Positions 10,940-20,779 of a stretch of DNA of 57,145 nt are shown in pieces. This DNA comes from Muribaculaceae bacterium (GTDB lineage Bacteria; Bacteroidota; Bacteroidia; Bacteroidales; Muribaculaceae). The position numbers and the translations under genes are program-made. The stretch is taken from positions 1 through 57,145 of the forward strand of contig JAGBIJ010000023.1 in assembly GCA_017935045.1 (NCBI GenBank). Reading direction: 5' to 3'. The notes beneath the pieces were generated by a model. That model saw only the letters and a program-made list of their open reading frames with translations, had not been told where the DNA came from and did not search any database. How positions within the stretch are numbered: position 1 is the first letter of the stretch; each line of letters starts with the position of its first letter.

Positions 10940-12382
10940 TTAGCCTACCGAGCCTTCCAGCGTGACCTGCAGCAGCTTCTGGGCCTCGACGGCGAACTCC
11001 ATCGGCAGCTTGTTCATTACCTCCTTGGCGTAGCCGTTCACTATCAGTCCGATGGCTTCCTCAGTAGGTATGCCGCGCTGGTTGCAGTAGAATATCTGCT
11101 CCTCGTTGATTTTGGAAGTGGTGGCTTCGTGTTCTACGGTCGAGCTGTCGTTCTGCACATCGATGTAGGGGAAAGTGTGCGCCCCGCAGTACGGTCCCAT
11201 CAGCAGCGAGTCGCACTGGGTATAGTTGCGGCATCCCTCGGCTGCGGGCATCATGCGCACTTCGCCTCGGTAAGAGTTCTGGCTGTGGCCTGCCGAGATA
11301 CCTTTGCTCACTATGGTGGAGCGGGAATTGCGCCCTACGTGTATCATCTTTGTGCCGGTGTCGGCCTGCTGGCGGTTGTTGGTCACGGCCACGGAGTAAA
11401 ATTCGCCGACGCTTTCGTCTCCTTTCAGTATGCAGGATGGGTATTTCCAAGTAATGGCCGAGCCGGTCTCGACCTGAGTCCAGCTCACTTTCGAACGATG
11501 GCCGCGGCACAGGGCGCGCTTGGTCACGAAGTTGTATATGCCTCCGCGTCCCTCCTTGTCGCCGGCATACCAGTTCTGCACCGTGCTGTATTTGACCTCG
11601 GCCCGCTCCTCGCATATTATCTCCACAATGGCGGCATGCAGCTGGTTCTCGTCACGCATCGGGGCTGTGCATCCCTCCAGATAGCTTACATAGGCATCGT
11701 CATCGGCCACTATCAGCGTACGCTCGAACTGGCCCGTGCCCGCCGCGTTGATACGGAAATAGGTACTCAGCTCCATCGGACAGCGCACCCCCTTGGGTAT
11801 ATATACGAAGGAACCGTCGGAGAATACCGCGGAATTGAGCGCGGCATAGAAGTTGTCGCGGTAGCTGACCACCGATCCCAGATAGCGGCGCACCAGATCG
11901 GGGTACTCGCGTACCGCTTCGGAGAACGAGCAGAATATCACGCCTAATTCAGCCAGCTTCTCGCGGTGTGTGGTCTTGACGCTTACCGAGTCCATCACGG
12001 CATCCACGGCCACTCCGCTCAGATGCTTCTGCTCCTCCAGCGAGATACCTAACTTATTGAAAGTCTTTACCAGCTCGGGATCCACCTCGTCCATGCTTTT
12101 TTTCAGCTCCTTCTTCTTCGGGGCTGCATAGTAGCTTATGGCCTGGAAGTCTATTTCCGGAATCTGCAGGTGTCCCCACGTCGGCGGCGTGAGCGTCAGC
12201 CAGTGCCGGTAAGCCTTGAGGCGGAAATCCAGCAGCCACTCCGGCTCCCCCTTTTTATGCGAGATGAGGCGTATGACCTCCTCCGACAGTCCGGGAGGCA
12301 CGATTTCGGTGTCGATGTCAGAAGTAAATCCGTATTTATAGTCGCCTTGTGTGGCGTCCTGAAGTATCTTGTCGTTGTCCAT
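10940..12382 (-). CDS. sufB: Fe-S cluster assembly scaffold SufB
   Basis: 480 residues, full length for SufB, the scaffold of the SufBC(2)D complex that assembles and delivers iron-sulfur clusters. Conserved features include [17 protein letters not shown], the EGCTAP Cys motif, the C-RNYTQCDS and HTFPYI stretches, the basal [21 protein letters not shown] segment and [11 protein letters not shown]. It is the first gene of the minus-strand cluster. The divergent intergenic region has a TAATTTTG box just upstream (around 12430-12440, minus). Oddly, sufC, sufD and sufS are not downstream; a phoH-like gene is. The partners must be encoded elsewhere. Confidence 0.97.
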
Positions 12383-12544
12383 ACTATCTTATAACATTCC
12401 CATACTGTCAAGGGATTTATACTTTTGCAAAATTAGCGAAAATTTGCGGATTTCTCTCTATTCCGCCCCCTCTATTTTCCGCAGCCGAGACTATAATTGC
12501 CCCTCTAAACGCCATAGGGCAAAAATTTTTTTGCGGCGACTCAA

Positions 12545-12695
12545 CCTTTCGGCCAAAGCCGTTGTTATAGTGATGTAAGGCGACCGGGACAGACCGATAA
12601 ACCGGAAAACCTGTTCGCCGGCTATGAAAAACACAAGACGATAGATTTTTGGTAATAGATTAATGTTGATATTAGGTTGATTAGTTAGTTATTTG
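12545..12695 (+). ncRNA. Structured intergenic RNA element, copy A
   Basis: This stretch between divergent sufB and convergent ompA matches 19729-19882. Shared parts, in order: a short 5' hairpin (around 12545-12562), TTATAG (12565-12570), a stem arm GGCGA (12579-12583), its partner TCGCC (12615-12619), CTATGA (12622-12627, pairing with TTATAG), CACAA, and a 40-base tail (12651-12690) that differs from copy B at only three positions. The GGCG stem is kept in both copies although its flanking pairs differ. The tail contains ATG and four sense codons before a stop (MLILG here, MLIIG in copy B), possibly by chance. Transcription from about 12537 is plausible after a T-run ending in TTTG. I do not recognise it with certainty as a named Rfam family. 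Confidence 0.65.
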
Positions 12696-12701
12696 TCATT
12701 T

Positions 12702-12753
12702 CCTTGGCAATAAGAACGGCGGACCGCGAGGCCCGCCGTTCTTATTGCCAAGG
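12702..12753. terminator. Perfect 21-pair hairpin after RNA element A
   Basis: The arms 12702-12722 and 12733-12753 are exact reverse complements with a 10-base loop. It lies eight bases after the RNA element and before the ompA terminator. There is no T-run on either side, so it may act as a processing or stability hairpin as well as, or instead of, an intrinsic terminator. Confidence 0.6.
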
Positions 12754-12777
12754 TGGAGCGTGACAGCGTTGAGATTG

Positions 12778-12817
12778 CAAAAAAGCGAGGCGGGGCGGTC
12801 ATGTCGACCGCCCCGCC
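12778..12817 (-). terminator. Terminator of the OmpA lipoprotein gene
   Basis: A perfect 12-pair GC-rich stem (12789-12800 with 12806-12817) has a five-base loop. On the minus strand it is followed within four bases by a run of six Ts (A-run at 12779-12784). It lies 22 bases past the ompA-like stop codon. Confidence 0.85.
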
Positions 12818-12839
12818 CAGTAATGTCGTGAGTGAGGGA

Positions 12840-13532
12840 TTATTTCAGAGTACCGGCTTCGGCGTCCTTGATCATCTGCTCGGAAGCGTAGATGAACACC
12901 TCTACGCGACGGTTCTGGGCACGGCCTGCGGCGGTCTCGTTGCTGGCCACGTAGTCCTGCATAGGCAGACCTACAGCATTCAGACGGGAGTTTGCTATAC
13001 CCTGGTTGTGAAGGAAGGTCTTCACGGCGTCGGCACGGTTGGTGCTGACTTTCTGGTTGATTTCCATACCGCCGGTGTTGTCGGTGTAACCTATGATTTT
13101 GACGTCTGTCAAGGGATTGGCAGCCAGTGACTGAGCGAACTCCTTGAGCTCGGCCTGGGCGCCGGAGTTGATGGTCCATTTGCCGGTGGGGAAGAGGATG
13201 CCGCCGTCGAAAGTGACGCGGATGGCCTGCAGGCCGTTGGCATCTGTAGTCTGCTCTACCTTGGCGTTGGCAAGCTCTTTTTCAAGTTCTTTCTGCTGCT
13301 TGTCCATCTTGTTGCCGATCAGCGCGCCTGCGCCTGCGCCTACGGCAGCGCCTACTCCAGCGCCTATGGCAGCGCCTTTGCCACCGCCTATCAGGGCTCC
13401 GATACCGGCGCCGAGGGCGCCGCCGCCGCCTGTGCCGATGAGGGCGCCTTTGCCCGTGTTGGACATGTTACAGCTGGATACGAAAAGGCTGGCGCAAAGA
13501 GCCAGGGCCATGGATACTTTTACTAATTTCAT
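12840..13532 (-). CDS. OmpA family lipoprotein with glycine zipper
   Basis: 230 residues. It has a lipobox (SLFVSSC, Cys 21), then a glycine-zipper segment (about 27-75, repeats of GAxIGAxxGG) able to form membrane-inserting helices, a short coiled linker, and an OmpA/Pal-like peptidoglycan-binding domain (about 105-220). The domain shows GYTDNTGGMEINQ, STNRADAVKTFL and GRAQNRRVEVFI, with the Asp and Arg that bind diaminopimelate. It should tether the outer membrane to peptidoglycan. It has its own promoter (13614-13645) and terminator, so it is monocistronic. The family is close to YiaD/PA0833-type proteins. Confidence 0.93.
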   Translation of the reverse strand: MKLVKVSMALALCASLFVSSCNMSNTGKGALIGTGGGGALGAGIGALIGGGKGAAIGAGVGAAVGAGAGALIGNKMDKQQKELEKELANAKVEQTTDANGLQAIRVTFDGGILFPTGKWTINSGAQAELKEFAQSLAANPLTDVKIIGYTDNTGGMEINQKVSTNRADAVKTFLHNQGIANSRLNAVGLPMQDYVASNETAAGRAQNRRVEVFIYASEQMIKDAEAGTLK

Positions 13533-13613
13533 AATTGTGGTTTTTTATTTGGATTGTATTTGTTTCTGGCGCGACACGGATTGCGGTCTGTGGCGGTCTG
13601 CGGACAGATTGCG

Positions 13614-13645
13614 CAAAGATACGAATTTTTAACTTTATAACCAAA
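13614..13645 (-). promoter_or_regulatory. Promoter of the OmpA lipoprotein gene
   Basis: On the minus strand TTTG (13642-13645) is followed after 20 bases by TATCTTTG (13614-13621). The predicted start is near 13607, giving a leader of about 75 bases. The -33 box partly overlaps the secDF terminator. Confidence 0.75.
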
Positions 13646-13646
13646 A

Positions 13647-13681
13647 AATACTCCCGCAGGTTTATGACCGGCGGGAGTATT
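13647..13681. terminator. secDF terminator
   Basis: An 11-pair stem (13647-13657 with 13671-13681) with a 13-base loop is preceded on the plus strand by an A-run at 13643-13648, which reads as a T-run on the minus strand. It lies 33 bases past the secDF stop. Confidence 0.85.
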
Positions 13682-13713
13682 TATGATATTTATGTATCCG
13701 TGAAGCCTTGCGG

Positions 13714-16689
13714 TCAGCGGGTCAGGCGCTGTCCGGCTACGGGCTTGGCGGCCTTCGGAGCGGCTTTCTTGCTGAGTATCTTGTAAGCCACGGGGGCTGC
13801 CAGGAACAGTGAGCAGAACGTACCTACCACAACGCCGAATATCATGGCGAAAGTGAACGAACGGATGGTGTCGCCGCCCAGGATGAAGATGCACAGGAGC
13901 ACCAGCAGGGTGGAGAACGAGGTCATGACCGTACGGGTCAGGGTAGCGTTCAGAGACTGGTTGAATACCGACTTCTTGTCTTCGCGCGGATAGAGTTTCA
14001 TTACCTCGCGCACACGGTCGAAGACTACCACGGTATCGTTTATCTGGTAACCGATGATGGTCAGCACGGCCGCTATGAAGCTCTGGTCTATCTCCATGGA
14101 GAACGGCAGGAAGCCCCAGCATACGGAGTAGAAGCCGATGATGAGGAAGGCTGTCATCGCCACGGCGCATACGGCGCCTACGGAGAAGGCCACGTTGTGG
14201 AAGCGGACCAGGATGTAGAGGAACATACAGAGTACGGCTATGCCTACGGCCAGCATGGCGTCGGCGCGCATGTCGTCGGCCACGGCGGCTCCCACCTTCT
14301 GGATGGAGACGATACCGAGCTGCTCGTTGGCTACAGTGAAGTCTTCGGCAGACATGGTCTTGCCGTTGACCGTAAGCTGCGGCTTGAGCGCGTCGTAGAG
14401 CAGGGCGGTAATGTCGCTGTCTACGTCTTCGGAGTTATCGTTGATACGGTAGTTGGTGGAGATACGTACTTTCTGGTTGTTGTCGATTGTAATGACGCTT
14501 ATGCTGACTGGGTCCTTGATGCCGTCTTTGGCCGCGGCCTGCTCGAATGTGGAGGTCAGGCTGTTGCGTATTTCCTCAGGATTCACGTCTTTCTGGAATG
14601 CCACTACGTAGTTGCGGCCTCCGGAGAAGTCGATGCCCTGGTTCATGCCGCGTGTAAACAGTGACACTACGGAGATTACCACCAGAGCGAGCCAGACGAT
14701 AAGGGCGCCCTTGGTCTTGCCTATGAAGTTGATTCTGGTGTTGGCCAGGAAGTTGCGCGAAATGCCGGTAGAGAAGGTCATGCCGGCGCAGCGGCCGTTC
14801 TTGGTTATCCAGTCGAACGCGATGCGGGTCAGGAAGACTGCTGTGAAGAATGAGCAGACCAGACCTATGATGAGCGTGGTGGCGAAGCCCTTGATGGGGC
14901 CGGAGCCGAACAGCAGCAGGATGACGCCTGTGATGACGGAGGTAAGGTTGCCGTCGAAGATTGCCGAGAAAGCATTGCTGTAACCGTCGGAGATGGCCTG
15001 ACGCAGCTTCTTGCCGGCGCGCAGCTCCTCTTTGGTACGCTCAAATATCAGCACGTTGGCGTCCACTGCCATACCCAGCGCGAGCACGATACCGGCTATG
15101 CCGGAGAGTGTAAGCACCGCCTGGATGGAGGCCAGAATACCCATTGTGAAGTAGAGGTTGAGCATAAGGCCGATGTTGGCTACCAGGCCGGGTACGAATC
15201 CGTAGATGAGAATCATGAAGATCATCAGCAGCACCAGAGCCACGATAAAGGAGGTAAAGCCAGCCTCTATGGCCTGGGCGCCGAGCGATGGACCGATTAC
15301 TTCCTGGCTCTCGACGCGAACCTTGACGTCCATCTTGCCGGATTTCAGCAGGTTGGCCAGGTCGTTGGCCTCTTCGGGAGTGAAGTTGCCGGTAATCTCG
15401 GAGCTGCCGCCGGTAATCTGGGTGTTGACGGTCGGGTATGAATAGACGTTGTCGTCAAGGACGATGGCTATGCTGCGGCCAAGGTTGTCTTTGGTAATGT
15501 TGGCCCAGTCGCGTGCGCCCTTGTCGCTCATGGTCATGTTGACCACAGAGCCTTTCATGTTGTCAAACTCGGAGCTTGCGCTTACTACGGCGTCTCCCTC
15601 AAGCTGGGGTTCGCCTTTCAGGGCGATCAGGCCGAAGTAGGGCTTGGTCAGCTCTTTGCCGTTTTTCTTCATGATGGGTTTGCCCTGCTTGTTGAGCTGC
15701 ACCTCCTCGGTGGGGGCGTTTTCCCAACGCAGACTCAGGTTGGAGGGGAGGATGCGGGCTGCCATCTCGGAGTTGATTATGGCGTTGACGGCAGCTGTAT
15801 CTTCGCGGGCTACCAGACCCAGACGCGGACCCATGGCGCCGTGGCTGAGCAGGTCGGTCAGCTTCTTGCTGTCAGGGTTGGCGGCGGCGTAGGCGGTGGT
15901 AAGCTCCTGAAGCTGTCCGCCGATTTCGTCGATATTATATACTTCGTAGAACTCCAGGTTGGCGCTCGACTGGAGGATGCGGGTCATCTGCTCAGGCTCC
16001 TTCACACCGGGAAGCTCCAGCAGAATCTGGCCGCGCTTGTCCTGGAGTTTCTGGATGTTGGGCGACACAACGCCGAACTTGTCGATACGGTTGCGGAACA
16101 CGTTGAAGGCGTCGTCCACCTGGCTCTCCACCTGTTTCTCAAGAGCTTCGACCACCTGCTTGTTGGTAGATGAGGCGGTCAGCTTGCCCATGAACTCTCC
16201 TTCGCGTGCGAACAGAGGCGCCATGGTGCCTTCCTGGAAGTTGGCGGCGAATTTCTGGATGAAGTCCTTATCGGAGGGTTTGCTGCCGGAGGTGGTATAT
16301 TCGCCCTGGGGCAGTACCTTCTTGATGCTTGCGTTAATCTTCTGGAGAGCGTCGGCGTTCTTGGCGAAAGAACGAATCACTTCAGTTGTGGGCACCTCCA
16401 GCACGAGGTTCATACCTCCCTTGAGGTCCAGACCCAGACCAATCTCCATCTTCTTGACATCGCCGTAGTTGTACCACAGATAGACGTTCTCTGTCTCCAG
16501 AGAGTCCATGTAGACCTTACGGGCGTCCTTGTAGTTCTTGTTGGCGATATCGGTAGTCCTTGCGACCTTGGCGGCGTATGCGTCTGCCTCTTTCTCAAAC
16601 TTTTGCGTTACGAAAGAGAAAGAGATGTAAAAACCGCAAATCAAGATCAAAAGGATAGCGATAGTGCCGATAAACCCTTTGTTCTGCAT
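13714..16689 (-). CDS. secDF: Fused protein translocase subunit SecDF
   Basis: 991 residues, a single chain joining SecD and SecF, as usual in Bacteroidetes. It is a proton-driven membrane partner of SecYEG that pulls exported proteins through on the periplasmic side. The SecD half starts with a transmembrane helix (about 8-28) and has GLDLKGGMNLVLEVP, the P1 domain with ILLELPGVKEPEQM, and the conserved SLGAQAIEAGFTSFI and LALGMAVDANVLIFER motifs. The SecF half has GIDFSGGRNYVVAF, SIQKVGAAVADDMRADAM and GYQINDTVVVFDRVRE. Twelve helices are expected. A TAAATTTG box lies at 16754-16761 (minus), giving a leader of about 60 bases. Confidence 0.97.
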   Translation of the reverse strand: MQNKGFIGTIAILLILICGFYISFSFVTQKFEKEADAYAAKVARTTDIANKNYKDARKVYMDSLETENVYLWYNYGDVKKMEIGLGLDLKGGMNLVLEVPTTEVIRSFAKNADALQKINASIKKVLPQGEYTTSGSKPSDKDFIQKFAANFQEGTMAPLFAREGEFMGKLTASSTNKQVVEALEKQVESQVDDAFNVFRNRIDKFGVVSPNIQKLQDKRGQILLELPGVKEPEQMTRILQSSANLEFYEVYNIDEIGGQLQELTTAYAAANPDSKKLTDLLSHGAMGPRLGLVAREDTAAVNAIINSEMAARILPSNLSLRWENAPTEEVQLNKQGKPIMKKNGKELTKPYFGLIALKGEPQLEGDAVVSASSEFDNMKGSVVNMTMSDKGARDWANITKDNLGRSIAIVLDDNVYSYPTVNTQITGGSSEITGNFTPEEANDLANLLKSGKMDVKVRVESQEVIGPSLGAQAIEAGFTSFIVALVLLMIFMILIYGFVPGLVANIGLMLNLYFTMGILASIQAVLTLSGIAGIVLALGMAVDANVLIFERTKEELRAGKKLRQAISDGYSNAFSAIFDGNLTSVITGVILLLFGSGPIKGFATTLIIGLVCSFFTAVFLTRIAFDWITKNGRCAGMTFSTGISRNFLANTRINFIGKTKGALIVWLALVVISVVSLFTRGMNQGIDFSGGRNYVVAFQKDVNPEEIRNSLTSTFEQAAAKDGIKDPVSISVITIDNNQKVRISTNYRINDNSEDVDSDITALLYDALKPQLTVNGKTMSAEDFTVANEQLGIVSIQKVGAAVADDMRADAMLAVGIAVLCMFLYILVRFHNVAFSVGAVCAVAMTAFLIIGFYSVCWGFLPFSMEIDQSFIAAVLTIIGYQINDTVVVFDRVREVMKLYPREDKKSVFNQSLNATLTRTVMTSFSTLLVLLCIFILGGDTIRSFTFAMIFGVVVGTFCSLFLAAPVAYKILSKKAAPKAAKPVAGQRLTR

Positions 16690-16832
16690 TGTTGTTAATC
16701 AGTTTGTATTTATTATATTTTATATTTTTTTGCGAGTAGATAATATCAGCTCGCAAATTTAGCAGTTTTTTTTGATATTTCACCCATAATGTCCTTAAAA
16801 ATCGCAATAAAAGCCGTACTTCCCTTCGGCGG

Positions 16833-16896
16833 GGAGACTGTCCGGCTGCCGGCGGAGCATAAAAATGAGGGCGGAGCGCTGCCGTCGGCAGTCTCC
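16833..16896. repeat. Imperfect inverted repeat between deoC and secDF
   Basis: GGAGACTG (16833-16840) and CAGTCTCC (16889-16896) are complementary, and the GC-rich inner parts pair imperfectly (GGCGGAGC against GCTCCGCC-like blocks). It follows the deoC stop by about 30 bases and probably ends the deoC message, though no clear T-run follows. The rest of 16690-16928 shows only the secDF -7 box. Confidence 0.45.
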
Positions 16897-16928
16897 GTCC
16901 TCATTATGCATACGCCTTCGGGCGCGAT

Positions 16929-17807
16929 TCAGAAATATTTGATTTCCTTGCCTTCTATCTCCGACAGGAGGGCGTTGGCCAGGCTGGAGGCTCCGATGCG
17001 GAACATATCCTGATTCAGCCATTCATCGCCCAAAATCTCTTTCACTATGGTGTAGTAGACCAGGGCATCGGCAGCCGTACGTATGCCTCCGGCCGGCTTG
17101 AAGCCTACCTTGCGGCCGGTCTTCTCGTAATATTCCTTTATGCACCTGCACATTATCCAGGCGGCCGCGTAGCTCGCGCCTTCGTAGATTTTACCTGTGC
17201 TGGTCTTGATGAAATCCGCGTCGCAGTGCATGGCCAGCACCGAGGCTTTCTTGATGTTGTCGTAGGTCTTGAGCGCGCCGGTCTCCAGTATCACTTTCAG
17301 GCGGGCGTCCTTGACCGCGTGCTTCAGCTCTATCAGCTCGTCGCACAGGTCCTCGTAGTCTTCGTCGAAGAAGTATCCTAAGTTCATCACTACGTCCACC
17401 TCGTTTGCTCCGCCGGCCACGGCCAGGGCGCAGTCGGCTATTTTCACGGGGGTAAAGGTCTGGCTCGAGGGGAAGCATCCGGCCACTACGGCTATGTCCA
17501 CTCCCGTAACGTCGAGATGGGTCTTGACCACTTCTGCGAAATTGGAGTAGACGCAGATGGCGGCTACGTTCTTATATTGCGGATAGTCGTTGTCGAAATC
17601 GTTGACTCTCTGCGTGAACCGTGCCACACTGCGCTGTGAGTCCGTGGAGCTGAGCGTGGTCAGGTCTATGGAACTCAGAAGATATTCGTAAACCTCTTTG
17701 GTGGCGTATTCCTTGCTTTTCTCTATTATTTTCGCTACCTCGCCGTCTACTGTGTCGGCGGCTACCGGTACTGTGCTTGAAGCCAGCGCTTCGTGGTATC
17801 TGTCCAT
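16929..17807 (-). CDS. deoC: Deoxyribose-phosphate aldolase
   Basis: 292 residues. It cleaves 2-deoxyribose-5-phosphate to glyceraldehyde-3-phosphate and acetaldehyde in deoxynucleoside catabolism. The class I aldolase TIM barrel is complete: VVAGCFPSSQT, GANEVDVVMN (Asp about 138), DFIKTSTGK with the Schiff-base Lys at about 201, and VGFKPAGGIRT with the activating Lys at about 237. An N-terminal extension of about 50 residues, common in the longer Bacteroidetes form, explains the length over the 220-250 residues of shorter homologues. No other deo gene is adjacent; it lies between the LytTR pair and secDF in the same direction. Confidence 0.95.
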   Translation of the reverse strand: MDRYHEALASSTVPVAADTVDGEVAKIIEKSKEYATKEVYEYLLSSIDLTTLSSTDSQRSVARFTQRVNDFDNDYPQYKNVAAICVYSNFAEVVKTHLDVTGVDIAVVAGCFPSSQTFTPVKIADCALAVAGGANEVDVVMNLGYFFDEDYEDLCDELIELKHAVKDARLKVILETGALKTYDNIKKASVLAMHCDADFIKTSTGKIYEGASYAAAWIMCRCIKEYYEKTGRKVGFKPAGGIRTAADALVYYTIVKEILGDEWLNQDMFRIGASSLANALLSEIEGKEIKYF

Positions 17808-17843
17808 GACAATCGTATTTTGAGTTAATGTTATCTTGATTAT

Positions 17844-18539
17844 TTAACGCAGAAGGGATAAGAAACGTTCTTTATAGGCGTCGGTCAGCGTGATGCTCTC
17901 GTCGCCTACAATTACTTTGCCGCGTTCCAGCGCCGATACTTTGGCGATGTTGACTATGTAGCTCTTATGTATGCGGCAGAAGCGTGTGGCCGGCAGACGT
18001 TCTTCTATGGCCTTGAGTGTGGCAAGGGCTATGATCGGGCTGCGGCTCTGCCCGGTATAGAGACATACGTAGTCTTTCAGTCCTTTGACGTAGAGCAGAT
18101 CGGGCAGGTCTACCCGGATGATTTTTCCGTCGCTCTTTACGAATATGTAGTCTTTCCCGCCGTTTTCATCGGACTCGGGGACAGCGGCCCAGCCGGCCAG
18201 CCTGCGGACGGCGGTAAGAAATTTCACGTAGGAGAGGGGCTTCAGCAGATAGTCGGCCGCATGTACGGAGTAGCTCTCAAGCGCGTATTCGCGGTAGGCG
18301 GTCGTGAAGATTACTTTGGTGGACAGAGGTATCATTGCCGCCAGCTCCAGTCCGTTGAGCTCCGGCATGTTGATGTCGAGGAACACGAGGTCTGTGTCGG
18401 GCCCCAGGGCGGCGGCAGCCTCGGTGGGGGAGAGGTAGCTGCCTGCATGCTCCAGAAAGGGGGTCCGCTCTACGAATCCCTCCAGCAGTCTGACGGCCAG
18501 CGGCTCGTCGTCGACTATGACGCAGCGTAGTTTTTTCAT
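17844..18539 (-). CDS. LytTR-family response regulator
   Basis: 231 residues with the start at 18539 (MKKLRCVIVDDEPL). A longer frame extends upstream, but those 58 extra residues are low-complexity and lie within the kinase gene, so they are not used. The receiver domain (1-115) has Asp 10/11, phospho-acceptor Asp 55 (FLDINMP), Thr 80 and Lys 100. The C-terminal LytTR DNA-binding domain (about 130-231) includes DYIFVKSDGKIIRVDL, YVKGLKDYVCLYT and RIHKSYIVN. The start overlaps the kinase stop (ATGA), so the two are translationally coupled. Targets are unknown. Confidence 0.95.
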   Translation of the reverse strand: MKKLRCVIVDDEPLAVRLLEGFVERTPFLEHAGSYLSPTEAAAALGPDTDLVFLDINMPELNGLELAAMIPLSTKVIFTTAYREYALESYSVHAADYLLKPLSYVKFLTAVRRLAGWAAVPESDENGGKDYIFVKSDGKIIRVDLPDLLYVKGLKDYVCLYTGQSRSPIIALATLKAIEERLPATRFCRIHKSYIVNIAKVSALERGKVIVGDESITLTDAYKERFLSLLR

Positions 18540-19576
18540 TTTTCCTCCTGTTGTTGATGTCTGATTGTAAGCGCTGCCCGGTAGCCGCCTCCGGGGACGG
18601 GGCCGTATTCCATAGTGTGGGCCTGCGGATATAGCAGCTCCAGGCGTCGGCGCAGGTTGCGCAGTCCGACACCATTGTGTCCGGGTTTTGCCTCTGCCGT
18701 ACGCTGGTTGCACAGACTGTTGTCTATCTCAAAGCGCAGTCCGTCCGTTCCGGCTTTCAGGCTCATACTGATACGGCAGTCGGCCGTGCTGCTCGCTCCG
18801 TATTTGAAGGCGTTCTCTATCAGTGATATGAACAGCAGCGGGGCCACTTTCAGCCCATCGGTATTCTTGGGCCAGTCACAGTCTATGTGCAGTTTCTCGT
18901 TGTAGCGCAGGCGCATCAGCGAGATATAGTCGCTTATGAAGCCGATTTCGGCCGACAGCGCTACGGTGGGGGTCGACGTGTCGTACAGCACATAGCGCAG
19001 CATGGACGACAGGGTGCCGATGGCCTCTTGTGTCGCTTCCGTGTCTATGGCCGAGAGGGCCGATATGTTGTTGAGCGAATTGAACAGGAAGTGGGGATTG
19101 AGCTGGCTTTTCAGCCGCTCCAGTTCCATGGTTGCCAGCTCTGCCTCGCGGCGGTCGCGCTCTGCTTCCAGCCGGCTGTTGCGCTGCATGTAGCGTATGG
19201 ACAGCGCGGCGAAAATCAGAAACAGAAACATGAGCCAGACCGTACCGAGACTCACTATGTCTTCCATGCCGAAGTCTTCCATGCTCAGTCCTCGTATCAG
19301 GGCATAGACAGCCTGAGTCAGCAGCGGAAGCGTGAGTCCGGCGCCGATATTGGCCCAGATGAACGCACCGGTACGCCGGCGGAACAGCAGCCGGGGGATA
19401 AGCAGCAGATAGTTGAGGTAAAACAGCGCCATCCATGTGAGTGTCTGCAGACCGAGAACCAGCAGATAGCGGCCGTCGATTTCCTCGCCTACTATCCACA
19501 GTACCGACATCGGCAGTACTACGAGCAACGCCCACAATACGACCTGAATCCATATAGCGGAATATGTATATTTCAT
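18536..19576 (-). CDS. LytS/YehU-type sensor histidine kinase
   Basis: 346 residues. Four predicted transmembrane helices (about 10-30, 38-60, 73-95, 108-128) make up the sensor, with no large extracytoplasmic domain. A charged coiled-coil (130-156) follows, then the His_kinase domain with QLNPHFLFNSLNN (His about 162) and an HATPase domain with SLIENAFKYG (N box) and GVGLRNLRRRLELLY (G box). It is co-transcribed with the LytTR regulator. Its promoter is at 19659-19689, and a copy of the repeat found at 25318 lies inside the 5' leader. Confidence 0.95.
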   Translation of the reverse strand: MKYTYSAIWIQVVLWALLVVLPMSVLWIVGEEIDGRYLLVLGLQTLTWMALFYLNYLLLIPRLLFRRRTGAFIWANIGAGLTLPLLTQAVYALIRGLSMEDFGMEDIVSLGTVWLMFLFLIFAALSIRYMQRNSRLEAERDRREAELATMELERLKSQLNPHFLFNSLNNISALSAIDTEATQEAIGTLSSMLRYVLYDTSTPTVALSAEIGFISDYISLMRLRYNEKLHIDCDWPKNTDGLKVAPLLFISLIENAFKYGASSTADCRISMSLKAGTDGLRFEIDNSLCNQRTAEAKPGHNGVGLRNLRRRLELLYPQAHTMEYGPVPGGGYRAALTIRHQQQEEK

Positions 19577-19597
19577 GGTGTAGAGAGTGAAAGACGA

Positions 19598-19634
19598 TTA
19601 AGAGGCTGTTTAAAAACAAATGTGAATTATGGGG
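19598..19634 (+). repeat. Solo end of the foldback repeat
   Basis: This 37-base stretch (TTAAGAGGCTGTTTAAAAAC and the following bases through ATGGGG) matches both ends of the 25318-25638 element almost exactly. It lies in the 5' leader of the LytS/LytTR operon. Only one end is present here, without the internal palindrome. Confidence 0.8.
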
Positions 19635-19658
19635 CGTCGGATAAACACCCTCTAACTA

Positions 19659-19689
19659 CAAAGTTAGTAAAACTTCTCCGTATCGCAAA
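19659..19689 (-). promoter_or_regulatory. Promoter of the LytS/LytTR operon
   Basis: On the minus strand TTTG (19686-19689) precedes TAACTTTG (19659-19666) by 19 bases, a full consensus match. The predicted leader of about 75 bases contains the repeat at 19598-19634. Confidence 0.8.
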
Positions 19690-19728
19690 ATTTTATCATT
19701 GCGGTCTGAAAAAATCATGCTTGTCTGA

Positions 19729-19882
19729 ACCATCCGTGGGATGGCTTGTTATAGTATCGTAAGGCGGCTGAAAAGAGGTTCGAAATACGAAAAAAGGATT
19801 TCCCGGTCTGCCGCCGCTATGAGAAGCACAAAGTTGGATTTTGGTAATAGATAAATGTTGATAATAGGTTAATTAGTTAGTT
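19729..19882 (+). ncRNA. Structured intergenic RNA element, copy B
   Basis: This is the second copy of the element at 12545-12695, again on the plus strand between a divergent operon (LytS/LytTR) and a convergent gene (sdhB). It has a 5' hairpin (CCATCC/GGATGG around 19730-19744), TTATAG (19749-19754) pairing with CTATGA (19817-19822), and a GGCGGC/GCCGCC stem (19763-19768 with 19810-19815). In copy A the stem is GGCGA/TCGCC, so pairs change while pairing is kept. The enclosed arm differs in sequence. The 40-base tail (19843-19882) differs from copy A at three positions. A 5' end near 19706 is plausible. It has no protein-coding character beyond a five-codon frame in the tail. Confidence 0.65.
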
Positions 19883-19884
19883 TT

Positions 19885-19945
19885 GTCGGAGTTTCGGCTC
19901 CGGAAGCAAGCAGGACGGATCGTGAGATTCGCCCTGCTTGCTTTT
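19885..19945 (+). terminator. Terminator after RNA element B
   Basis: Two hairpins follow the element: a short one (CGGAG/CTCCG at about 19887-19902) and an 11-pair stem (19904-19914 with 19933-19943) running into TTTT. The second is a good intrinsic terminator in the plus direction and supports independent transcription of element B. Confidence 0.7.
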
Positions 19946-19966
19946 GTCGTGAGTGCATACAGACAA

Positions 19967-19999
19967 GGCCGGGGCGGATATGGAAAATCCGCCCCGGCC
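19967..19999 (-). terminator. Terminator of the sdhCAB operon
   Basis: A perfect 13-pair GC-rich stem (19967-19979 with 19987-19999) with a seven-base loop sits 22 bases past the sdhB stop. No long T-run follows on the minus strand. Confidence 0.75.
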
Positions 20000-20020
20000 C
20001 GGGATATGGTGCTTACAATA

Positions 20021-20779
20021 TTATTCTTTGCACTTGGCGGCGATGAACTGGCGGTTCATGCGGCCGATGTTGTACAGCTTGATCTGCTTGGGGCACTCGG
20101 CGGAGCAGGCGCCGGTGTTGGTGCAGTTGCCGAAGCCCAGCTCGTCCATGCGTGCCACCATGGCGCGCACGCGGCGGTCAGCCTCTACCTGACCCTGGGG
20201 CAGCAGTGCGAACTGGCTGACTTTGGCGCTGACGAAGAGCATTGCGGAGCCGTTCTTGCAGGCTGCCACGCATGCGCCGCAGCCGATACAGGTGGCAGAG
20301 TCCATAGCCTCGTCGGCCATCTCTTTGGAGATGGGCAGGTCGTTGGCATCCTGGGCGCCGCCGCAGTTGAATGATACGTAGCCGACGGCCTGCTGTATCT
20401 TGTCGAAGGCGTTGCGGTCTACCATCAGATCCTTGATGACCGGGAAGGCAGCCGAACGCCACGGCTCTACAGTGATGGTCTCGCCGTCGGCGAAACGACG
20501 CATGTACAGCTGGCAAGTGGTGGCTCCCGTGGCGGGACCGTGGGGATGGCCGTTGATGTAGAGCGAGCACATGCCGCAGATACCCTCACGGCAGTCGTGG
20601 TCGAATACTATAGGCTCCTGCTTTTCCTCGATGAGACGCTCGTTGAGGATGTCCAGGGTCTCAAGGAACGAGGTGTCGGGAGTGGTCTCCACGTCGGTGT
20701 AAGTCACAAATCCGCCCTTATCCTTCGGGCCGGCCTGACGCCACACCTTGAGATTGACTTTCATTATGTTTTCTTCCAT
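20021..20779 (-). CDS. sdhB: Succinate dehydrogenase/fumarate reductase iron-sulfur subunit
   Basis: 252 residues. It carries the three Fe-S clusters that pass electrons between the flavin of SdhA and the quinone site in SdhC. The [2Fe-2S] motif is CREGICGMC (Cys 63, 68, 71) with a fourth Cys near 89; the 4Fe-4S and 3Fe-4S ligands are [11 protein letters not shown] and, further on, a [12 protein letters not shown] segment. The start [15 protein letters not shown] fits homologues that begin with a similar short leader; an internal ATG at residue 6 is less likely. It is the last gene of sdhCAB, 53 bases after sdhA. In anaerobic Bacteroidales the complex runs mainly as fumarate reductase. Confidence 0.96.

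Follow-up and report, generated by a model that had tools for sequence, protein, structure and literature searches.

The window analyzed here is a stretch of 57,145 nucleotides from a Muribaculaceae bacterium (contig JAGBIJ010000023.1), two intergenic regions of which hold plus-strand copies of a structured element. Comparative evidence supports its prediction from sequence as a multi-copy small RNA family of the Bacteroidales. Copy 1 (12543..12753) lies between sufB (10940..12382, minus strand; PF01458), which is divergent from it, and an OmpA-family gene (12840..13532, minus strand; PF00691), which is convergent. Copy 2 (19728..19945) is flanked by a divergent sensor histidine kinase gene (18536..19576, minus strand; PF06580) and by a convergent iron-sulfur protein gene (20021..20779, minus strand; PF13085 and Fer4 domains) which we take from its context to be sdhB. 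An earlier sequence-only reading of this DNA had described a divergent gene on one side of each copy and a convergent gene on the other, and the annotated neighbors agree. The 5′ end of copy 1 was placed tentatively at an AACC box and the 3′ end at a hairpin, and the ends of copy 2 likewise are provisional.

The two copies display the same order of parts, all on the plus strand. The AACC box (12543..12546 in copy 1 and 19728..19731 in copy 2) stands near the presumed 5′ end and may mark the start of the transcript. The motif TTATAG (12565..12570 and 19749..19754) pairs with CTATGA (12622..12627 and 19817..19822) in helix P1, which encloses stem-loop P2 in both copies and which in copy 2 extends outward as GCTT/AAGC past one mismatch. 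P2 spans 12579..12619 in copy 1, directly 3′ of a conserved GTAA, with GGCGA at 12579-12583 paired with TCGCC at 12615-12619. In copy 2 it spans 19763..19815, with GGCGGC at 19763-19768 paired with GCCGCC at 19810-19815. There follows a tail (12651..12690 and 19843..19882) that is free of C, weakly structured and nearly invariant, and that is proposed below as a seed; the copies differ at three of its 40 bases. Each copy closes with a long hairpin, at 12702..12753 with a GCGA loop (12726-12729) and no clean T run 3′ of it in copy 1, and at 19903..19944 with a GTGA loop (19922-19925) and TTTT at 19942-19945 in copy 2.

Both window copies also have a separate 5′ hairpin, CGGC/GCCG in one and CCATCC/GGATGG in the other, which by eye was not seen to be kept in homologues. 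A terminator scan picked out the hairpin of copy 2 (19730-19744) as a terminator-like site on the plus strand, where chance alone would give 0.5 such sites. The alignment of this hairpin, TTATAG/CTATGA, the GGCG-type stem and a 40-base tail with three differences had been proposed in the sequence-only reading, and sequence and alignment bear it out, with 37 of the 40 tail bases shared. The strong terminal hairpins to which that reading drew attention also exist in both copies, just outside the span that it had assigned to them.

The recurrence of these parts is not expected by chance. Two perfect matches to the head motif TTGTTATAGTNNNGTAAGGCG are present in the window (12562-12582 and 19746-19766), where 0.02 would be expected, and none of 100 shuffles contained two. 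The tail pattern also matched twice, compared with 0.00 expected, and with up to three mismatches the tail was found only at these two places in the assembly of the window's own genome (62 contigs, ~90% complete).

Further copies were sought with a sequence-only model of the tail, R1, and the distribution given here accordingly concerns the tail strip; MAFFT left the 3′ strand of P1 unaligned. The model recovered 11 copies, spread over 7 of the 111 genomes searched within the window's genus, so that the search for relatives which the sequence-only reading had advised placed the element in six other genomes. Here G000 is the genome of the window, other G-numbers label genomes, L-numbers label sequence stretches and W1 is a window copy. 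Two copies each were found in G000, G018, G124 and G224, and one each in G613, G628 and G629. The layout is shared by 9 of the 11 copies, those of G628 and G629 having no recognizable head and just the core of the strip and the end hairpin. All nine full-length copies have AAC near the presumed start, extended to AACC in six. With the OmpA-family neighbor as yardstick, four other carriers were the closest relatives found (77-83% identity versus ≤69% for the rest); 41 of the 111 genomes had no OmpA match at that limit, including G628 and G629.

Broader searches gave a compatible picture. When the genome_contigs collection was scanned for the exact pattern, nine stretches matched in six genomes labeled by their submitters as Bacteroidales, Muribaculaceae or Prevotella. 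Within a sample of the family, 4 of 198 genomes had a pattern match, all four in the window's genus. In an order sample of 393 genomes, the window's genome was accompanied by two weak candidate matches, G421 and G248 (E 3e-4 and 8e-4), which exceed the 0.4 expected from 393 genomes at that E limit. Two matches among relatives, L005 and L006, appeared on reading to be short, AT-rich and chance-like. A permissive search of 32 genomes returned some match at E ≤0.5 in 19; among 11 sub-threshold matches that were read, two came from G662, discussed below, and nine were chance-like. One further match, at E 0.011, was in G224.

Copies stand at partly different places in different genomes, and they might therefore be the remains of small mobile elements or repeats resembling repetitive extragenic palindromic sequences or miniature inverted-repeat transposable elements. 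The relative G224 does have dispersed repeats. However, each genome carries just one or two copies of the element, and some neighborhoods are common to species, namely the OmpA-family gene in G000 and G224 and a gene of LOG type in G018 and G629. Moreover, the exact pattern was absent from viral contigs and a query with copy 1 had no match in plasmids or phages, which makes an origin as a repeat quite improbable. Its distribution instead suggests a gene that is chromosomal and confined to one clade. The repeats of G224 lie on contig C11 (L124-L143, 400 kb) and include 18-base words within TCAATTTAAATTAAACTTTATG and TTATAGTAACCCCGTACACACGCG in six or more copies each. A looser 20-base pattern matched two viral contigs by a repeated short motif and not by the element. 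Each of these related IMG/VR contigs, L168 and L169, has four occurrences of TTAGGTTAGTTAGTTA that follow TATAAT(A)AAGGC-like sequence, and twice the motif stands shortly 5′ of a possible start codon; perhaps it is a repeated viral promoter or leader.

Compensatory changes give good support to the end hairpin. When the 11 copies were aligned outward from the GNRA loop, 121 of 132 cells held standard pairs compared with 95.2 ± 4.1 when arms were swapped between copies (maximum 112 in 2000 swaps), and 10 of the 12 positions in the stem had double changes. The long hairpin is present in all 11 copies and is followed by a clean T run in eight. Folding of the whole element was markedly better than that of shuffled sequences (z -6.5 for copy 1 and -5.2 for copy 2, with none of 200 shuffles as good in either case), mostly because of this hairpin. 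The heads alone gave z -1.2 (26 of 200 shuffles as good) and -2.3 (6 of 200), respectively. For P2, anchored between GTAA and CTATGA/AGTGA, the combined z was 5.9 over nine copies and five copies fell below 5%, among them both window copies with 1 of 500 shuffles as good in each. The head stem thus is supported only jointly over the nine copies; P1 in homologues was judged by eye. The compensated stem change that had been proposed, GGCGA/TCGCC versus GGCGGC/GCCGCC, is present, and its compass is one stem in the two window copies. The broader proposal of a multi-copy family gains from the 11 copies in seven genomes, the double changes in the end hairpin and the joint head-stem signal.

The orientation of neighboring genes bears on whether the RNA acts on its own. 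Of the 11 copies, six, including both in the window, are followed by a convergent gene and three (both G124 copies and the G628 copy) by a gene on the same strand; two were not judged. The OmpA-family gene adjoins copies in G000 and G224, sufB is near copies in G000 and G124, and the LOG-type gene adjoins copies in G018 and G629; Pfam domains were checked for the window's sufB and OmpA-family genes and for the G018 gene of LOG type, the remaining neighbors being judged by eye. A head that senses in cis, with the end hairpin as attenuator of a downstream gene, would have the observed layout of a folded head followed by a hairpin, and could operate on the three same-strand frames. The preponderance of convergent neighbors renders this arrangement highly improbable. 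Each copy very probably is a stand-alone small RNA gene.

A number of results detract from this assignment. No plus-strand promoter was called at the window copies in a promoter scan confined to sigma-70 types. A simple terminator scan, which requires five T, called neither window end hairpin on the plus strand, and three of the 11 copies (W1, L031 and L033) have no clean T run after the hairpin. Four of the nine head stems did not fall below 5% (L029_2, L030, L033 and L019, for which 56, 172, 103 and 224 of 500 shuffles were as good, respectively), and the anchors of the head-stem test were chosen after inspection of the folds.

The most distinctive part of the element is the strip. It contains no C, and over a 33-base stretch there are zero differences among the seven full-length copies outside the window genome. 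A 25-base core is the same in all nine copies from other genomes, and each window copy departs from it at one base. Since the strip or its core served as bait in the searches, this invariance in part reflects selection of the copies. Taken alone, the tail showed no folding advantage over its shuffles (z -1.0 and +1.3).

The strip includes a five-codon frame, ATG TTG ATA (TTA/ATA) GGT followed by TAA or TGA, in all 11 copies, the change in copy 1 retaining the stop, so that a translated leader or tiny peptide (MLILG/MLIIG) might account for the conservation. A second family in G662, described below, also has an in-frame ATG with a similar stop when inspected by eye. Nevertheless, the changes among the 11 copies affect one first and one second codon position and never a third, and the seven bases 3′ of the stop are identical in all 11 copies and the next three in 10, which favors constraint on nucleotides over constraint on codons, an argument weakened by the use of the strip partly as bait. 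Translation of the frame is improbable as the reason for its conservation, and the frame probably is incidental, as the sequence-only reading had allowed in suggesting that it could be chance.

The composition of the strip may point to another role. As the strip lacks C its complement lacks G, and the 45 bases 5′ of 887 start codons contain 15.8% G and 35.2% A; the G-free complement thus suits translation start regions in the window's genus. Sites outside the element that match 18 bases of the tail complement with up to three mismatches were collected from five genomes, with the pattern read backwards as control. Ten of 12 such sites lay at start regions on the sense strand versus 2 of 13 for the control (Fisher p 0.0012), although the start-region rule was fixed after the matches had been seen and the sites partly overlap the 887 genes. 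Site number was the same for complement and reversed pattern, the difference being one of location. In a separate scoring of the 887 regions, which derive from G224, G124 and the window by simple longest-frame gene calls, strong matches were 1.5 to 2.6 times the shuffled level: at the highest threshold, 11 regions matched, whereas dinucleotide-shuffled tails gave 4.2 and reached so high a count in 4 of 200 shuffles. On their opposite strand, these regions fell below shuffles at every threshold (1 versus 2.5 at the highest), and regions further upstream had no excess over shuffles. An excess of strip complementarity to start regions is in part demonstrated by these sequence comparisons, with moderate confidence.

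A trans-acting RNA that employs the strip as a long seed against start regions, after the manner of GibS and FopS, is about as likely as not, and several results speak against it. The excess weakens at lower thresholds (23 versus 12.6, 10 of 200; 56 versus 36.9, 13 of 200; 119 versus 107, 56 of 200), and 3′ ends of genes were slightly above shuffles at the highest threshold (5 versus 2.4, 29 of 200). Mean match scores showed no shift at start regions, and duplex energies for 252 start regions were slightly worse than with shuffled strips (z +1.3). Just 2 of 70 orthologue pairs both scored ≥9, none convincingly, and a search for a long antisense target, at 23 bases and up to three mismatches, gave nothing outside the element. 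When copy 1 is folded as a whole, the strip pairs with itself in a weak stem.

The strip might instead be bound by a protein, such as an RRM protein resembling RbpB, or by another RNA, the small RNA then serving as a sponge or scaffold. At least 30 invariant bases are long for a seed, which favors this reading, and RRM sites usually are short and degenerate, which does not. The strip is AU-rich, weakly structured and fixed base for base, and the start-region duplex energies show no excess. For RbpB of Bacteroides thetaiotaomicron, a preference for single-stranded, AU-rich sequence and binding of multi-copy small RNAs have been reported (PMC11697453), which would fit the strip. Neither the placement of the near-complementary sites nor the surplus of strong matches at start regions would be expected of a protein site, and this explanation is possible but doubtful.

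If the strip is a seed, a small RNA of ~210-220 bases would start near the AACC box and fold its variable head with P1 enclosing P2. The C-free strip of 30-40 bases would lie exposed between head and hairpin, and the GNRA-capped hairpin would stop transcription and protect the 3′ end. The strip would then pair with G-poor, A-rich start regions of several mRNAs and so block ribosome binding. The head, the sequence of which drifts, probably sets stability, protein binding or folding. Individual targets and any protein partner are conjectural; the sdhC start region, with match scores of 11.5 (window), 9.5 (G018) and 8.5 (G124), is a candidate picked post hoc.

Two further observations concern the surroundings of the window copies. 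A similar GC-rich hairpin, GGGGCGG...CCGCCCC, stands between the element and the convergent gene at each locus, at 12788-12818, where it was called as a minus-strand terminator, and at ~19966-19998, where it was not called. In addition, copy 1 is beside sufB (gap 12382-12545) and copy 2 is beside succinate dehydrogenase genes (gap 19945-20021). Given the fair match of the sdhC start region to the strip, a connection of both loci with iron-sulfur proteins is possible, again post hoc.

The element was compared with described RNAs. As the sequence-only reading had recommended, Rfam was searched: no Rfam 15 family reached its gathering score in the window, and at E ≤10 the only matches over both elements were far below gathering. 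That reading had left open whether the element equals Bacteroidales-1 (RF01693), likewise a Bacteroidales RNA family. The two differ by locus: RF01693 was found once at a separate locus in each of five genomes tested (in G000 at C25:3524-3715, 141.7 bits) and was not listed over either element even at E ≤10. Identity with Bacteroidales-1 is excluded because RF01693 occupies another locus in all five genomes and its gathering score was not reached in the window. No published description of the element's family was found in open-access literature.

A possible relative was encountered in G662, a genome of the window's genus without a clear copy of the element. There, a five-copy intergenic family is present at L163 (two copies), L164, L165 and L166. 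By eye, all five copies have an upstream AACC box, the strip TGATGTTAGGTTAGTTAGTTAG, a ATGGAAAACA box and a long downstream hairpin with a GNRA-like loop, and the number of GTTA units varies. The ATGGAAAACA box follows the strip in G662, whereas it precedes the strip in the element. With E-values of 0.012-0.145, the R1 matches fall short of significance in a search of the 25 genomes that lack a clear copy, and kinship with the element therefore is only conjecture. A blast search with the G662 element returned one irrelevant match to a Lactiplantibacillus plasmid and no phage match, and Rfam gave nothing at threshold for two of the G662 loci. The family perhaps is a second multi-copy small RNA. 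It may be imagined that one invariant C-free strip is a generic seed against start regions of many mRNAs, that head and terminator are exchangeable with the head adding a sensing or protein-binding function, and that G662-type strips are clade-specific versions of a device widespread in Bacteroidales; so wide a generalization is unlikely.

Few small RNAs of the Bacteroidales are understood, and GibS and FopS both stem from one model genus. The candidate described here offers a clear, testable working part outside Bacteroides, some 30 fixed bases with head and hairpin stems that drift around them. A clade-restricted family with simple folds and a rigid sequence core can escape Rfam. The family would be new, trans-acting small RNAs being already known as a kind.

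FopS is a paralogous family of Bacteroides with 12-15 copies per genome of ~65-70 nucleotides, in which a conserved single-stranded seed at the 5′ end precedes a terminator hairpin and pairs with start regions of susC-like mRNAs; its consensus is stated to be deposited in Rfam (PMC11697453). On this account, the element resembles FopS as a multi-copy family with a conserved seed-like strip and a hairpin after it. It differs in its one or two copies per genome, in its probable length of ~210-220 nucleotides and in the position of the strip between a head and a hairpin, FopS being headless. Rfam release 15, which may include the FopS consensus, gave no match to the element. GibS of B. thetaiotaomicron is the product of one gene, ~145 nucleotides long, with a single-stranded seed region of 30-50 nucleotides at the 5′ end, metastable hairpins and a terminator, and base-pairs with the BT_0771 and BT_3893 start regions (PMC7366714). 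The long seed, if the strip is one, and the end hairpin are points of likeness to the element, whereas the folded part of the element precedes the strip and GibS has its seed at the 5′ end and a single gene. In 9 of 11 copies of the element, ~100 bases of conserved head stand before the strip, which speaks against a seed at the 5′ end of FopS or GibS type if the transcript starts where it is placed here. By analogy, the element would work as do GibS and FopS, a likeness in mode of action that does not imply membership of either family.

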